From Bartonella apihabitans (GTDB lineage: Bacteria; Pseudomonadota; Alphaproteobacteria; Rhizobiales; Rhizobiaceae): a stretch of 64,000 nucleotides of DNA. Positions 1,621-26,611 of the stretch are shown here, piece after piece (the stretch's first letter is position 1; every line of letters begins with the position of its first letter). The stretch spans positions 1,364,001-1,428,000 of the forward strand of contig NZ_CP132387.1 of NCBI RefSeq assembly GCF_030758755.1. The letters are read 5' to 3'. Below the pieces are notes generated by a model that worked only from the letters and a program-made list of their open reading frames with translations, searched no databases and was not told the DNA's origin. The position numbers were made by a program, and so were the translations under genes.

Positions 1621-4029
1621 TCAGGTAATTCCTTCGTCAGAAAACCGCTTATAAGCCTGAAATCGCACTTTGTTTGTGACCGCAATTGTCGCGGTAATAT
1701 CAGGCACGTAAATTGCCAGAGTAAAATTGAAATTATTGCTGTCAAAGCTTGAAAAACTGACCCATGGACTGGGATTTTTCAAAACTCCTTCGGTATTATT
1801 GGCGGTTTCCATCAATACCTCGACGATATGTTCCGGATCGGACATAGCCGGAACAGTAAACGTCACGTCAACACGCCCGATTTTATTACGATGTGTCCAG
1901 TTACCGACATTGTTATTGATGAGGCTTGAATTCGGCACGATAATTGTTTGCCGCTTCAACGTTTCGACTTCGGTTGCACGGACGCTGATGCGTTTGACAA
2001 TTCCGACAATTGTACCGGTTTCAACATAATCGCCCACTTTGAAGGGGCGCTCTGCCAACAGAATAAGACCGGAAACAAAATTCTGGACAATATTTTGAAG
2101 TCCAAAGCCGATACCAAGTGAAAGACCACCGGCAATCAATGCAAGGCTACTCAAATTGAAACCGGCGGCCGATAGGCCTATCAGCGCGGAAAGCGCAATA
2201 CCGCCATAACCGACAACGGTGCGGATGGAATTTCTGACACCTGAATCGACTTTTCCGCGGGCAAGCACCGTGCCATCCAGCCAACCTATAAACCAGCGGA
2301 TCAGGAACCAGCTTATCAAAAAGAAAACAATGCCGATTGAAATACCGACAAGCGAGATGGATACATTTCCAATTTCGAAACCGGTCATTATGTGAATGAA
2401 GGCCGATAAAATATCGGATGCCGAAAAGCCGAGCTGCATAATGATCGGCGGCACACAAACAATAATCACAATAATGTTGAGGAGAATACCGGCAACAAGG
2501 CCTAGCTGGTCCATTGTGCTATCGTCGATATTAAATCTCTGAACCAGACGACGGCCGATGAATGTCTTGGCAAAAGCTCCCTCTTCAGCCGTTGCACGCG
2601 CTGTCTGTATGCCAAGATACATCAACACGAGAAACGCACCGCTGACTACGATTTGTTGGGAAATAAACCTCGCCATGCCGACATAACCGGCAAGTGCTGT
2701 CAAAATGGGTAATAACCCGACAACAATAAGCGGAATACGGATATAGAGCGGCCAGGAAGTTACCTTTTTATCATCCTCGCTGCTCGTTCTTGCCCGAACA
2801 AAAGAAATCGCCAGAATAATAATGCCAACAAGAATAACCGAAATGAAGCTCTTGGCGATAGCAAGTGAAAGAGGTGCCGATACGGCGCGATAAACAGCAT
2901 TCAGGAAATAATCCAGTGCCATTACCAACGCCAATAAAGTCAATAGCACAATCAACAGACGCGCCGGTTTTGGCGCTATATTCATCAACCGTAGCTCTGG
3001 CAGTTTCGGTGAGAGAATGACAAAAGACATGCGGGCGATAAAAAACACCAGCATTACGACATCTGCTGCCGAGCGGAATACCGGTTCCAGATTTGGCCAA
3101 CTAATTCCAAGATAGTTGAAAAATATCAGTATGAGAATGACAAAAACCGCGCAAATCATTGTCGGAACAAGCGTTGCGACAAAAGCGAATGACAAGCGCT
3201 TCAAATAGGATGCGTCTTGTTCTTCCTTGGTTGCCTCATGCTTGACACGACCAATCAATTTATGCGTCGAAATGACAAGAACACCAGCGATAAAAAGCGG
3301 AATCAAAATGCTAGCACATAGCGCTAACAACTTGAATTGATAAACAAATTGCCACCAGGAAAACATCAACGAGAAAAAGTCCGCCGCCGCATCTTTTGCA
3401 GATTGGGCAATTTGTGTACCAAGAGGTGAAGAAAACTCGACCCTATGGGTCAATGTTCTTGCGAACAATTCCCGCGATTGCGCTATCGTTCTTTCAACAA
3501 GTCGATTGGCATCAATCGAACAATCTTCGAGCTGTCCGACCAAAGTATTGATCTTCACTTTGAGCTGGCGAAGATTATTTCTTTCGTCGGTAACCGTTTT
3601 TGCTTCCTGAACCCCGTCTTGAGGCTCGCCCAATTGGTCCAGACGTAAATTGATATCATTCAACGGCGAACGGAAAAGCAAAGCCGTGTTAATGACTTTG
3701 CCGCTGACATCCTGTGCTTTGTTACGGACATCGGTCAAGGCTGCATCATCATCCTGTCCGGCGTCATAGCTCTTCAATAGCTCTTTTAGCTGGTCTTTAT
3801 AGCCATTCACGACCGCTTGTTGTTGTTTGACAAGATCTGCGGGGCTTAAAACCGTATTATCAGCGGTTGAAGGTGTTTGCGCCTCTGCAACATTCCCGAC
3901 AGCCGATAGACTTGATAAGGTCAGTCCCGTCGAAGAGATTGCCAGAACAATGATAAAACAGAAATTGCGAATGAGATTTTTAAAATTCAAGGGACCAACC
4001 ATTCCAGATAAAGATAACGAATCGCGCAT
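1621..4029 (-). CDS. DUF3772/MscS-family mechanosensitive channel, 802 aa
   Basis: A long inner-membrane channel of the MscK/MscM-like type that should open under membrane tension and release solutes during hypo-osmotic shock. The N-terminus has a signal or membrane segment ending near AEAQ, then an alpha-helical periplasmic part (DUF3772, about residues 50-210), many membrane helices, and a C-terminal MscS module with the pore helix (GGLSLGIGFGLQNIVQNF) and beta domain (ERPFKVGDYVE). ATG 4029 is preferred over an in-frame ATG 60 bases upstream because it sits closer to the membrane segment; no strong ribosome site decides it. Confidence 0.88.
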   Translation of the reverse strand: MRDSLSLSGMVGPLNFKNLIRNFCFIIVLAISSTGLTLSSLSAVGNVAEAQTPSTADNTVLSPADLVKQQQAVVNGYKDQLKELLKSYDAGQDDDAALTDVRNKAQDVSGKVINTALLFRSPLNDINLRLDQLGEPQDGVQEAKTVTDERNNLRQLKVKINTLVGQLEDCSIDANRLVERTIAQSRELFARTLTHRVEFSSPLGTQIAQSAKDAAADFFSLMFSWWQFVYQFKLLALCASILIPLFIAGVLVISTHKLIGRVKHEATKEEQDASYLKRLSFAFVATLVPTMICAVFVILILIFFNYLGISWPNLEPVFRSAADVVMLVFFIARMSFVILSPKLPELRLMNIAPKPARLLIVLLTLLALVMALDYFLNAVYRAVSAPLSLAIAKSFISVILVGIIILAISFVRARTSSEDDKKVTSWPLYIRIPLIVVGLLPILTALAGYVGMARFISQQIVVSGAFLVLMYLGIQTARATAEEGAFAKTFIGRRLVQRFNIDDSTMDQLGLVAGILLNIIVIIVCVPPIIMQLGFSASDILSAFIHIMTGFEIGNVSISLVGISIGIVFFLISWFLIRWFIGWLDGTVLARGKVDSGVRNSIRTVVGYGGIALSALIGLSAAGFNLSSLALIAGGLSLGIGFGLQNIVQNFVSGLILLAERPFKVGDYVETGTIVGIVKRISVRATEVETLKRQTIIVPNSSLINNNVGNWTHRNKIGRVDVTFTVPAMSDPEHIVEVLMETANNTEGVLKNPSPWVSFSSFDSNNFNFTLAIYVPDITATIAVTNKVRFQAYKRFSDEGIT

Positions 4030-22330: not shown

Positions 22331-22366
22331 CCACAAATGAACTTTGTTGGCGGTGGAGTAACTAAA

Positions 22367-23263
22367 ATGAGCACAAACCGCCCATGGTATAAGCGATACC
22401 CGGCTGATTTTATTCAAGGAACAATGGGCTTAAGCCTCGAAGAAAAAGGGGCTTATTCAATCATCCTTGATCTAATCTATGCCAAAGGCGCGCCGATTGT
22501 CGACGATGCAAGATATATCGCCGGCGTGTGCAACATATCGCTTAGAAAATGGGCGGCCATTCGTGAGCGGCTTGTTGAAGCTAAAAAAATAACAATTTCC
22601 GCCGGTTTTATCTCCAATTTTCGCGCAGAAAAAGAGATCGAAAACGTCTCGAAACTTGAACGAAAACTCGCTGAAAGTGGCGCGAAAGGTGGACGAAAAC
22701 AAGCTGAAAATGCACCTCGTTTCAATAAAAACAATAACTTAGATCAAGCCACCCTTAAGCATACGCGCGCGAAAGATATAGAAACAGATACAGATATAAA
22801 AAAGGATACTAACGTATCCCAAAAAAAAGGTTGCCGGTTACCAGACGATTTTCAACCGGATTTTTCTTTTGCCACCAATGAAGGTTTTTCCCAAGACGAA
22901 GCCCAAACGTTGTTCGAGAGCTTCCGGGACTATTGGACTGCAAAAACGGGAAAAGACGCGACCAAACGCGATTGGCAAGCGACTTGGCGGAACTGGGTGA
23001 GAAGCCCCTACAACAAAAAAATCAAAGGATTTAATCATGCAAAATCTCGCGAAGAGCGAAAATCGACCGGTCGGCAATTCGCCGAAGCCGTGTTTAACAT
23101 CTGTGATCGACAGGGCTTGGATCCGCATCAACCAATTGTTAGCCGAGACGTTCCCACCGAAGTTTCGGGCTGGGGCGAAACCGACGCTGGAACAGATAGC
23201 GAATACGCGAGTGCTCATAGCCGACACACGGGACTTGCTATCGTTGCGAGCAACCCCCGCTGA
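22367..23263 (+). CDS. DUF1376 replication-initiator-like protein, 298 aa
   Basis: The DUF1376 (YdaU) domain is clear in residues 1-90: RPWYKRYPADFIQGTMGLSLEEKGAYSIILDLIY. It is followed by a lysine-rich linker and a C-terminal region with FRDYWTAKTGKDATKRDWQATWRNWV, a helix pair found in phage replication proteins that bind the origin. ATG 22367 follows GGTGGAG; a start 30 bases upstream is less likely. Its last 227 bases overlap the next gene in another frame. Confidence 0.8.
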   Translation: MSTNRPWYKRYPADFIQGTMGLSLEEKGAYSIILDLIYAKGAPIVDDARYIAGVCNISLRKWAAIRERLVEAKKITISAGFISNFRAEKEIENVSKLERKLAESGAKGGRKQAENAPRFNKNNNLDQATLKHTRAKDIETDTDIKKDTNVSQKKGCRLPDDFQPDFSFATNEGFSQDEAQTLFESFRDYWTAKTGKDATKRDWQATWRNWVRSPYNKKIKGFNHAKSREERKSTGRQFAEAVFNICDRQGLDPHQPIVSRDVPTEVSGWGETDAGTDSEYASAHSRHTGLAIVASNPR

Positions 23264-23624
23264 CGTTGCAAAAATTTTCGCGCTTTTGGCTGGTGGAATG
23301 GCCGCTCGAAAAGGCGATGAAGCAGCGATATCGGCACAGGCCTACACCGACGCATTGGCGCACCGTTCAAGCTGGGCAATTGGTGAGGCTTATTCGCGGA
23401 TTATCGAAGGCGAAGCAAAAGAATTCAGCCAGACATTTTTACCGACAGCGCCGGAACTCTCTCAATTTTGCAAAAAGATCGAAGAGAACATGCGGGCAAA
23501 ACTTGATCGCATTGAGGCCATTCTGGACGCCCCTGAAGAACAAGCCAGTGGGACATCTATTTCAGCAGAAAAATTCGACGAACTGATTAAAAAATTCAAA
23601 CAAGTTAAGGGAGAAGCAGCATGA
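23037..23624 (+). CDS. Phage replication-associated protein (helicase-loader position), 195 aa
   Basis: The segment [45 protein letters not shown] and [12 protein letters not shown] matches a recurring type of rhizobial phage protein placed after DUF1376 genes. The C-terminus is helical. Position suggests loading of host helicase, as lambda P does, but no motif proves it. The first 227 bases lie inside the DUF1376 gene, and the conserved part begins inside that overlap. It overlaps the next start by four bases. Confidence 0.65.
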
Positions 23625-23880: not shown

Positions 23881-24284
23881 ATGGTGGCTTATTCCTTTCA
23901 AAACCAGTTTGCCTCGTTTGTTGCGAATGGTCTTAAGAGACAAACAACTCGGCCAATGCGCAAAAATAGACATGCCAAGATTGGCGATAAGCTACAATTG
24001 TTCACTGGTTTGCGGACGAAAGAATGCCGCAAGTTGCTGACAAAAGAACCTATTTGCACGGCTGTTGATGCGATCGAGATACATCTCTCTCGGACTGTAC
24101 GCATGCCAAAATTGAACGGGTTGTTGTTAATGGGCGTGAGCTTCTTGATGACGAAGTTGAAGCTTTTGCAAAGGCCGACGGCTTTCTTGGTAGTGCGACA
24201 CAGGCGCCCAGTGAAGAAATGGCTGCATTTTTTCATCACTTTTATGGCAGCGGCGTTTTTCGCGGCCGCGTTATTCATTGGTAG
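23881..24284 (+). pseudogene. ASCH-domain phage protein, frame broken, about 133 aa
   Basis: The first part VAYSFQNQFASFVANGLKRQTTRP and KIGDKLQLFTGLRTKEC is the ASCH fold of rhizobial phages, an RNA- or nucleotide-binding PUA relative. At the CTCTCTC tract 24085-24091 one CT unit too many shifts the frame. Removing it gives HLSDCTHAKIERVVVNGRELL and a normal end at 24284 (GRVIHW). As written, the frame continues into a spurious hydrophobic tail. Confidence 0.75.
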
Positions 24285-24299
24285 AGCGGAGGCAGCGGA

Positions 24300-25586
24300 A
24301 TGATTTATGGCAGCATCTGTTCTGGTATCGAAGCTGCAACAGTGGCGTGGGAGCCTTTAGGATGGCAACCGGCTTTCTTTTCAGAGATTGAAAAATTTCC
24401 CTGTCAATTACTTGCACACCGGTACGGCAGCAATACGCCGAACGAACCGATATGCGCGAATGGCGTTCCAAACTTTGGTGATATGAATGGATATGAACAA
24501 TGGCCTCAATACGCAATTGACCTTCTCGTTGGCGGGGCCCCGTGCCAAGACTTCTCAATCGCAGGTATCCGAGCAGGCTTGGCTGGAGAGCGTAGCAGTC
24601 TCGTCATTACCTTTGTTAAAATTGTTCGCAAATACCGCCCCCGCTGGTTTGTTTGGGAAAATGTGCCCGGAGTGCTTACAAGTGGCAGCGGACAAGACTT
24701 TGCAGACATTTTGGGACTTTTCACCGGACACCGAGTTGAAAAGCCCAAAAGCGGATGGAAGAATTCGGGATACGTCGAAGGATACGAAAACGCGTACAGC
24801 GTCGCTTGGAGAGTGCTCGACGCTCAATTTACCAGAGCACGCGGGTTTCCAAGAGCAGTGCCACAACGAAGGCGTCGTGTGTTCCTTGTCGGACATATTG
24901 GAACGAACAAATATCCCGCAGCGGTATTATTTGACCTCGAAAGCCTGCGCGGGGATTTTGCGCCGCGCAGAGAAGCGAGGCAGAGCATTGCCGCAAGCAT
25001 TGCAGACGGCGTTGGAACAAGTAATACAGACGACAAAAATCAGCAAAGAAAACAATTAAATAACGGCAATCATCTTTTTGTTTGCACACTTGGGCATAGC
25101 CAATCCAATGGATTGGGCATTTCAAACGCAAACGTGGCAAATACGCTTGAAGCAACCGCCAGCGTTAATCAAGCCGTTTTCGATCGACAATCAAGCGGCG
25201 AATATGGGGCGAATGATGTGGCGTCAACTGTTTCCGCCCGCGATTATAAAAGCGCGAGCGATCTGATCGCGTGTTCGCCGCTTGCGTTTGATTGCTTATC
25301 GGGCGGCAAGACCGGTAATTCCGTTGGTAATATCCCAGGGGCGTTGCACGGCGTCGGAAGGGCAGCGATTGCAACGAAAACTCAAGTCCGGCGGTTGATG
25401 CCGATCGAGTGTGAAAGGATTATGGGTTTCCCCGATAATTACACAAAGCTTGACGAAAAAACCGCCGACGCACCGCGCTACAAGGCTTTAGGTAACAGCA
25501 TGGCTGTGAATTGTATGAGGTGGGTAGGTGAAAGAATTCAGCTCGTTGAAAACTTTCTGTCGGGAATTTTGGAGACCACGTCATGA
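24300..25586 (+). CDS. DNA (cytosine-5) methyltransferase, 428 aa
   Basis: All main motifs are present: SAM-binding SICSGIEAATVAWEPLGW, catalytic GGAPCQDFSIAG (cysteine about residue 81), WENVPG, the QRRRRVFLVGH motif, a variable target-recognition region, and the final ALGNSMAV. It methylates C5 of cytosine in phage DNA, likely against host restriction; target site unknown. No cognate endonuclease lies nearby. It overlaps the next methyltransferase start by four bases, and a second protein-like frame lies inside it. Confidence 0.93.
   Translation: MIYGSICSGIEAATVAWEPLGWQPAFFSEIEKFPCQLLAHRYGSNTPNEPICANGVPNFGDMNGYEQWPQYAIDLLVGGAPCQDFSIAGIRAGLAGERSSLVITFVKIVRKYRPRWFVWENVPGVLTSGSGQDFADILGLFTGHRVEKPKSGWKNSGYVEGYENAYSVAWRVLDAQFTRARGFPRAVPQRRRRVFLVGHIGTNKYPAAVLFDLESLRGDFAPRREARQSIAASIADGVGTSNTDDKNQQRKQLNNGNHLFVCTLGHSQSNGLGISNANVANTLEATASVNQAVFDRQSSGEYGANDVASTVSARDYKSASDLIACSPLAFDCLSGGKTGNSVGNIPGALHGVGRAAIATKTQVRRLMPIECERIMGFPDNYTKLDEKTADAPRYKALGNSMAVNCMRWVGERIQLVENFLSGILETTS
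24493..25059 (+). CDS. Nested phage protein inside the methyltransferase gene, about 188 aa
   Basis: Reads in the +1 frame relative to the methyltransferase and is wholly contained in it. The C-terminal part is protein-like: GECSTLNLPEHAG, then CSLSDILERTNIPQRYYLT and KACAGILRRAEKRGRALPQAL. I recognise this ending as a recurring phage-encoded sequence, usually found next to or over cytosine methyltransferase genes. The opening NNGLNTQLTFSLA also recurs. ATG 24493 or 24487; weak site GGTGAT upstream. Function unknown. Confidence 0.6.
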   Translation: MNNGLNTQLTFSLAGPRAKTSQSQVSEQAWLESVAVSSLPLLKLFANTAPAGLFGKMCPECLQVAADKTLQTFWDFSPDTELKSPKADGRIRDTSKDTKTRTASLGECSTLNLPEHAGFQEQCHNEGVVCSLSDILERTNIPQRYYLTSKACAGILRRAEKRGRALPQALQTALEQVIQTTKISKENN

Positions 25587-26611
25587 TAGAGCGCGTAGCA
25601 GAACGGCTTACAACATACACAGGCGATTGCTTGTCTATTTTGCCAGCATTACAGGCTGAAAGTGTCGATTGCGTGGTAACCAGCCCGCCTTATTGGTGCT
25701 TGCGCGACTATGGTGCATCCGGTCAATTAGGCCTCGAAGCGACACCAGATGAACACGTCGCGAAAATGGTCAAAGTATTTAACGAGGTGAAGCGCGTCTT
25801 AAAAAACACTGGAACATGTTTCGTCAATTATGGCGACAGTTACGCGACCGGCAAAAAGTGGGGAAAGGCAAAGGACCTATGCCTAATCCCGCAGCGCTTC
25901 GCAATCGCGATGCAAAACGCAGGCTGGTTTGTGCGTTCAGAAATCATTTGGGCGAAGCCAAATCCAATGCCGGAAAGTGTCACCGACAGACCGGCAGCGG
26001 CACATGAGAAAATTTTCCTTTTCACAAAAGCCCCAACTTATTTTTACGATGCCGATATCGTACGGCAAAAGCTCTCGGGCAGCTCCATTCAGAGACTTTC
26101 CCAAGATATCGAGCACCAAACAGGTTCTAGCCGTGCCAATGGCGGCGGGAAAAAGAACGGGAATATGAAAGCAGTGGCAAGGAAGCGCGGACAAGTGCCG
26201 GGCAATCGGGTGCAAGCTGGGCTGGCTCGATTAGACCAAATGAGTAAGGCGGAGCAGTGTGCCAATGGCCGAAACTTACGCGATTATGAACCCGCACCGA
26301 TGCCGGTCTGGAACATCGCAACAGTCCCTTTTACCGGCGAACATTTTGCTACATTTCCGCCTGAATTAGCTGAACGTTGTATTCTGGCAGGCTGCCCAAA
26401 AAACGGGGTGGTGTTAGATCCTTTTTCCGGTTCGGGAACGACTGGATTGGTTGCGTTACGCCACAGTCGAAAAGCTATTCTTATCGAAATCAACCCAAAA
26501 TTTATGGATATGGCAGTGCGCCGGATAAAAGCTGAATGGCACGTACCTGACAGTCAGCAACGTCCAGATTTTGGCCCGCTGTTCAAAAATATTCCGGAGG
26601 CCGCAGAATGA
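25583..26611 (+). CDS. Site-specific DNA methyltransferase (N4/N6 amino type), 342 aa
   Basis: Catalytic TSPPYW at residues 33-38 near the N-terminus and the SAM-binding FSGSGTTG near residue 280 give the beta-class order. TSPPYW favours N4-cytosine, though N6-adenine enzymes of this layout exist. The middle (residues 165-225) is a target-recognition region rich in basic residues. Coupled to the C5 methyltransferase by a four-base overlap, so the phage modifies its DNA with two chemistries. Confidence 0.92.
   Translation: MIERVAERLTTYTGDCLSILPALQAESVDCVVTSPPYWCLRDYGASGQLGLEATPDEHVAKMVKVFNEVKRVLKNTGTCFVNYGDSYATGKKWGKAKDLCLIPQRFAIAMQNAGWFVRSEIIWAKPNPMPESVTDRPAAAHEKIFLFTKAPTYFYDADIVRQKLSGSSIQRLSQDIEHQTGSSRANGGGKKNGNMKAVARKRGQVPGNRVQAGLARLDQMSKAEQCANGRNLRDYEPAPMPVWNIATVPFTGEHFATFPPELAERCILAGCPKNGVVLDPFSGSGTTGLVALRHSRKAILIEINPKFMDMAVRRIKAEWHVPDSQQRPDFGPLFKNIPEAAE

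Follow-up and report, generated by a model that had tools for sequence, protein, structure and literature searches.

The window, i.e. the whole 64-kb stretch of DNA that was analysed, contains around the site prophage genes for an integrase, SSB, an Erf-like protein, a primosomal protein, terminase, portal and head. Among them lies a C5-cytosine DNA methyltransferase (MTase) gene of the phage type, and a second, protein-like frame is nested in its +1 frame. The features of the locus are the following:

24300..25586, + strand: phage-type C5-cytosine DNA MTase, host gene of the nested frame, 428 aa (PF00145, phrog_116, motifs)
24477..24481, + strand: candidate Shine-Dalgarno (SD) sequence GGTGA, 5 bases 5' of ATG 24487, weaker than the AAGGAG-type of many relatives
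24487..25059, + strand: predicted overprinted gene, nested in the MTase and read in +1, 190 aa (188 aa from ATG 24493), as judged from homology, open length, frozen synonymous sites, profile scores and stop avoidance
24487..24876, + strand: residues 1-130 of the nested protein, its variable N-terminal part, with pLDDT block means of 46-63 (alignment, AlphaFold model)
24877..25056, + strand: residues 131-190 of the nested protein, its conserved C-terminal domain, with modelled helices 134-139, 151-164 and 170-189 (model, relatives)
25583..26611, + strand: next gene, an N6/N4 DNA methyltransferase (PF01555, E 1.2e-48), with a 4-base overlap with the first MTase

The product of 24300-25586 matches PF00145 (E 5.6e-42) and phrog_116 (E 1.7e-74), and the MTase is intact, with the PCQ, ENV and QRRRRVF motifs all in the translation. 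The host frame in the window combines PF00145 with motifs IV, VI and VIII, by which a phage-type C5-cytosine MTase was recognized, and the patterns of these three motifs are found in 211 of the 213 MTase genes of the nested-bearing set. The nested open reading frame (ORF), with a first ATG at 24487 and a second at 24493, is entirely within the MTase ORF. The first-pass annotation of this DNA had described such a +1 frame of about 190 residues (24487/24493 to 25059) in a MTase whose motifs are intact, and both ORFs are indeed present. It had also proposed that the DNA here encodes two conserved proteins overlapping by more than 560 bases, and this holds for 24487-25059 within 24300-25586.

Another overlap is listed in the window. 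The ORFs 22337-23263 and 23037-23624, both on the + strand and in different frames, share 227 bases as listed. One is a primosomal-type protein and the other matches phrog_18745 only from residue 61; the true start of the latter may lie later, leaving a small overlap with its neighbour.

Relatives of the nested frame and where they lie

The search of protein databases that the first-pass annotation had proposed retrieves, with the 190-aa nested query, 1379 proteins at E<=1e-3. With tblastn, the same protein finds 113 phage records and 527 plasmid records, 448 of which are from Escherichia. In all six phage loci opened first (hosts Roseobacter, Enterobacter, E. coli with phage P1, Cronobacter, Pseudanabaena and Mycobacterium), the relative is read in +1 within a C5-MTase gene and carries no gene annotation. 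Of the 21 phage and plasmid records opened, only that of Thibault marks some of the nested frame as a gene (gp104, which is the nested C-terminus). By record titles and hosts, the relatives are found in Pseudomonadota, Cyanobacteria, Actinomycetota, Bacillota, Verrucomicrobiota, Spirochaetota, Planctomycetota and Acidobacteriota.

The loci for the profile scan are 80 viral loci fetched with the +1 profile, 79 new viral loci fetched with the MTase profile, 80 genome loci fetched with the +1 profile, the window, and the six phage loci opened first. Certain contigs and places in genomes were retrieved twice. A six-frame HMM scan gives 247 matches in 246 sources, and a second, MTase-selected scan with a mycobacteriophage query gives the nested frame at its 80 best loci. 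The mapping of relatives against dcm-type genes, also suggested at the outset, places every one of them (247/247 and 80/80) in +1 of a MTase. The MTase-based fetches were seeded with nested-bearing MTases and only the best 80 were kept, so these counts describe close relatives and not all phage MTases. A free-standing nested homologue is found neither in the 246 scanned sources nor in the 80 further loci, which are the best-scoring ones only, so that rare free copies could escape. Of 36 additional loci, many of them repeating earlier places, 34 carry the nested frame in a MTase and the remaining two are weak matches.

The nested ORF is present in five of 299 genomes sampled from the host phylum. 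This sample yields eight places, including the window and a second copy in its genome, and all of them overlap MTase sequence. The second MTase copy of the host genome (G000:C3:1209592-1210875, locus L247) likewise contains a nested ORF, which encodes 185 aa. The nested gene is absent from all 40 other genomes of the host genus examined. Two of the eight places, L281 and L285, look decayed, with the MTase and the nested frame both shortened or altered. In some Omega-type mycobacteriophages, an HNH endonuclease gene splits the MTase/nested stretch (L372, Thibault, and L373, Schatzie, at about 1871-3400); the annotators of Schatzie noted an intron, the boundaries of which were not determinable.

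A tree of 95 MTases places the 65 nested-bearing enzymes on one side of a branch with support 99 and 30 controls, all from one phylum, on the other side. The nested gene was probably overprinted once, and is old. C5-MTases are spread far more widely than the nested-bearing clade. Because of this wider distribution, the frame of the MTase predates that of the nested gene.

Open length, profile scores and selection on the two frames

A frame that lies over a conserved gene may look conserved only through that gene. Some of the similarity in +1 is of this kind: the MTase segments QRRRRVFVVG and AVLFExESL read in +1 roughly as SLSDILE and YFLSxKAC, and the confirmed relatives are all within MTases, as a pure shadow of the MTase would also give. 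The comparison of open length started from 213 genes of the 246 sources, the other 33 being without the required motif I pattern. Removal of short or similar genes leaves 169 representatives. Many of these were selected through the +1 protein, and the tests of open length, start and SD, stops, replacements and pairs are on this set partly biased towards open frames. The main tests were repeated on 41 representatives (25 pairs) picked by the MTase alone, and the results agree.

The +1 ORF of the window has 190 codons. When the MTase is shuffled synonymously 200 times, the mean is 94.7 codons, and four of the shuffles reach 190. In the 41 MTase-selected representatives the +1 ORF has 170 codons where 90 are expected, and 17 of the 41 are individually significant (p<0.05). 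The values for all 169 representatives are 179 and 101 codons, and those for 20 genes of 40-50% GC are 162 and 52. The ORF is longer than the amino acids and the codon usage of the host frame predict; the L077 representative has a +1 ORF of 88 codons only. Stops in +1 are avoided inside the overlap (five observed and 117 expected in the 41 genes; 57 and 466 in the 169), compared with 64 observed and 47 expected in one flank of the 41 genes and 171 and 126 in the other.

The profile scores separate the two sources of similarity. The +1 frames of 31 MTase-selected genes kept outside the profile score 180.6-250.6 bits (median 218.4). A total of 620 synonymous shuffles of these genes still score a median of 64.0 bits, so the shadow contributes, with a maximum of 118.8; each of the 31 held-out frames outscores all 20 of its own shuffles. 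Since shuffling removes about 150 of the 218 bits, the MTase shadow accounts for roughly one third of the similarity in +1 of these sequences, but not for the rest. In 30 unrelated MTases, all from the host phylum, no nested relative is found (at most 15.1 bits against the nested profile), and unusual +1 openness is seen in none of the 25 that could be tested, the other five being without the motif VIII pattern. The lowest observed score is above the highest shuffled one, and the stop avoidance and the freezing of synonymous sites described below are confined to the overlap. A frame conserved through the MTase alone is therefore extremely improbable.

The absence of homologues outside methyltransferase shadows, put forward in the first-pass annotation as a ground for refutation, is literally the case, yet the gene is not refuted by it, because the 30 unrelated MTases are without the frame and the shuffles lose so much of the score. 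As every confirmed relative is in +1 of a MTase while the shadow fails to explain the score, the nested gene appears, as far as searched, to be an obligate overlap and not a free-standing gene that overlaps here by chance.

Synonymous substitution was also to be compared between the frames. In the 41 MTase-selected genes and the window, the homozygosity of third bases is 0.661 over codons 63-232, where 0.343 is expected, and outside these codons it is 0.384 and 0.383 (expected 0.349 and 0.343). The set of 169 genes gives 0.630 inside (expected 0.349) and 0.396 and 0.399 outside (expected 0.357 and 0.347). Judged from these alignments, the synonymous sites of the MTase are frozen across the overlap only, and the freezing begins and ends with the nested gene. 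In 79 close pairs, third positions change at 0.252 per codon inside the overlap and 0.496 outside.

The residues of the second protein are under selection as well, as seen in conservative replacement, stop avoidance and the periodicity of the C-terminal domain. Where the nested residue is not the most frequent one at its position, its mean BLOSUM score inside the overlap of the 41 set is -1.00 with -1.27 expected, and outside it -1.12 and -1.18 (expected -1.16 and -1.22). In the set of 169 the difference is 0.253 (s.e. 0.012, 8264 cells). The third base of MTase V209 is A in 87 genes, T in 76 and C or G in none, so that the nested codon there reads Tyr or Phe. In the C-terminal domain of 77 pairs, the subset kept of the kind counted above as 79, MTase position 1, which is the nested wobble position, changes at 0.225 per codon and position 3 at 0.151; position 1 is ahead in 56 pairs, behind in 10 and equal in 11. 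The MTase-selected pairs give 0.237 and 0.159, with position 1 ahead in 21 of 25.

A nucleotide element under constraint (a regulatory site, a RNA fold or a packaging signal) could likewise freeze synonymous sites. However, the constraint has the +1 codon period in the C-terminal domain, is more than 500 bases long in very diverged genes, tolerates swaps of the Tyr/Phe type where other third bases are missing, and comes with the avoidance of stops. A calculation over 24440-24520 indicates no excess of RNA structure there (z 0.91). A DNA or RNA element in place of a second protein is thus scarcely credible.

The lineage of the window is less uniform. Between the locus in the window and L247, the second copy in the same genome and the other member of its closest pair, third positions change in 45 of 190 codons in the overlap and in 60 of 238 outside, which is not clearly lower, and the nested proteins (74.6% identity) are less similar than the MTases (83.6%). 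The N-terminal part has 32 third-position changes in 130 codons, as in the flanks and without nested periodicity; in the 55 codons of the C-terminal domain, which shows that periodicity, MTase position 1 has changed 14 times, position 2 9 times and position 3 8 times. Across the family silent change in the MTase frame is lowered within the overlap alone, but in this pair it is lowered only in the C-terminal domain and not over the overlap as a whole. The free substitution in +1 that would have spoken against the gene is accordingly not seen across the family, but the N-terminal part looks unconstrained between these two copies. Compared with the metagenomic locus L087, third positions change in 35 of 179 codons in the overlap and in 87 of 211 outside. 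Because of these two pair comparisons, the C-terminal domain is, on the nucleotide changes counted, the visibly constrained part in the window lineage.

Taken on the sequence evidence, 24487-25059 is very probably a genuine protein-coding gene, overprinted in +1 of the phage C5-cytosine MTase gene.

Predicted translation start

A start codon preceded by an SD of at least four bases is found at MTase codons 63-75 in 113 of the 169 representatives (43.5 expected) and in 30 of the 41 selected by the MTase. The commonest SD motifs are TAAGGAG and AGGAG, and the start codon alternates between ATG and TTG. In other relatives, the P1-like group among them, the start is near codon 105-110. In many relatives the nested frame has a predicted translation start of its own; the SD of the window is weak. 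A single promoter-like match is found in 24200-25100, where 0.9 are expected. The simplest reading would be internal initiation on the MTase mRNA, i.e. ribosomes would start within the message and make a separate protein.

The nested sequence could alternatively be the C-terminal half of a frameshifted MTase, with no start of its own. The database proteins P0181 and P0199 fuse a MTase N-terminus to nested sequence, and the weak SD of the window is also in line with this. On the other hand, the position of the frame switch differs between the two, as expected from indels or assembly errors, which is probably what they are. An in-frame +1 stop lies upstream at codon 62 in 93 of the 169 representatives, and the starts at codons 63-75 follow it. 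A frameshift product is considered very unlikely, and a gene with its own internal start is preferred.

The nested protein and its possible role

The 167 relatives, with starts chosen by rule, have 118-241 aa (median 157). Invariant residues are concentrated in the C-terminal part, which holds 14 of the 15 found in 93 aligned sequences, and its median pI is 9.4 (166 relatives). The AlphaFold prediction is confident only C-terminally, with block pLDDT means of 85-98 for residues 141-190 and 83.5 for a C-terminal model, and the modelled domain is formed by a short helix followed by two longer ones. In the product, a variable stretch at the N-terminus would be followed by a compact basic domain made of helices. 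The invariant residues (L, G, I, R, P) look structural or basic and not like those of an active site. Because of the basic domain and of the lack of a conserved set that looks catalytic, a binding role seems more likely than an enzymatic one.

The fold and family searches with the nested protein point to no function. The search of solved folds with its model gives no convincing match, and none of 98 nested proteins matches Pfam or NCBIfam at E<=0.01. In PADLOC, MTase_II is weakly matched by five of the 98 (best E 0.0039) and OloA by one (E 0.035). The nested protein of the window has no credible Pfam match and reaches phrog_16143 at E 0.12. The model also aligns weakly with BFVD A0A8S5LZA8, a 521-aa 'Cytosine specific methyltransferase' of Podoviridae sp. 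ctDgT26. The family phrog_16143 (139 positions, labelled 'DNA methyltransferase') is matched by 68 of the 98 nested proteins (best E 9.9e-14). On account of these matches, it probably consists of nested-frame proteins, and its label was probably borrowed from the overlapping MTase. The likeness to a recurring phage protein, suggested in the first-pass annotation, was right in substance.

Same-strand overprinted genes are classically known in phages, such as phiX174 E in D and lambda Rz1 in Rz. Like them, the nested MTase gene is a second frame on the same strand that starts inside its host gene. It differs in having an enzyme of DNA methylation as host, with no sign of a lysis protein, and in its presence in phages and prophages of many bacterial phyla, within one MTase clade. 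Long same-strand overlaps kept over such distances are unusual in DNA phages, which have room to spare, and this one offers a test case for two proteins locked in one sequence. Work on phiX174 is cited in a review (PMC8227390). The ShiLan-type hidden HNH element was considered as a candidate and rejected: none of the 98 nested proteins gives an HNH match in Pfam or NCBIfam, and the nested gene is no insertion, spans core motifs of the MTase and is read in +1.

The nested protein possibly acts with its own MTase, as a partner or regulator that would bind the enzyme or its DNA. This reading is put first because the two are never found apart, and it is held only tentatively. A slightly less probable one is a real overlapping gene whose product is independent of the MTase, e.g. 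a counter-defence protein or a DNA-binding regulator. Phage genes often serve counter-defence, and the basic helical C-terminal domain would suit such an effector; however, it is never free of the MTase in confirmed loci, though a useful protein might have escaped, and the PADLOC matches are weak. As a first guess the partner or regulator is ranked first and the independent effector close behind. In a wider version of the partner or regulator reading, which is as tentative, a whole clade of phage C5-MTases may be a two-protein module, in which the enzyme comes with an overprinted, obligate partner or regulator that carries a small helical domain of a new kind. This module would have been inherited as a unit from a single origin and occur in phages and prophages of many bacterial phyla, P1 included, and the needs of the nested protein may also have shaped the MTase just after motif VIII.

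The nested ORF is found in +1 of P1 dmt, and stays open in the records examined of P1, P7 and six P1-like plasmids. The P1 nested protein has matches in 530 PLSDB records, 517 of which cover at least 80% of it in one place. The dmt (dam) product of P1 and P7, a bifunctional C5 and N6A methyltransferase, resembles the window MTase in carrying the nested ORF in +1, and differs in the start of this ORF, near codon 105-110 compared with 70 elsewhere. In the P1 and P7 records fetched, the MTase alone is annotated at the nested stretch. In comparisons of P1 with the six plasmids and P7, constraint is not consistently stronger in the overlap than in the sequence downstream of it. The function of the nested protein can be tested in a standard laboratory phage given its occurrence in P1, and the deletion or recoding of such MTases, P1 dmt included, may unknowingly alter two genes. 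In the P1 isolate OP279344.1 (L003, about 1105-2119), dmt appears to carry an insertion of the intein type, in frame and at its catalytic PCQ motif, and the nested ORF lies downstream of this insertion.
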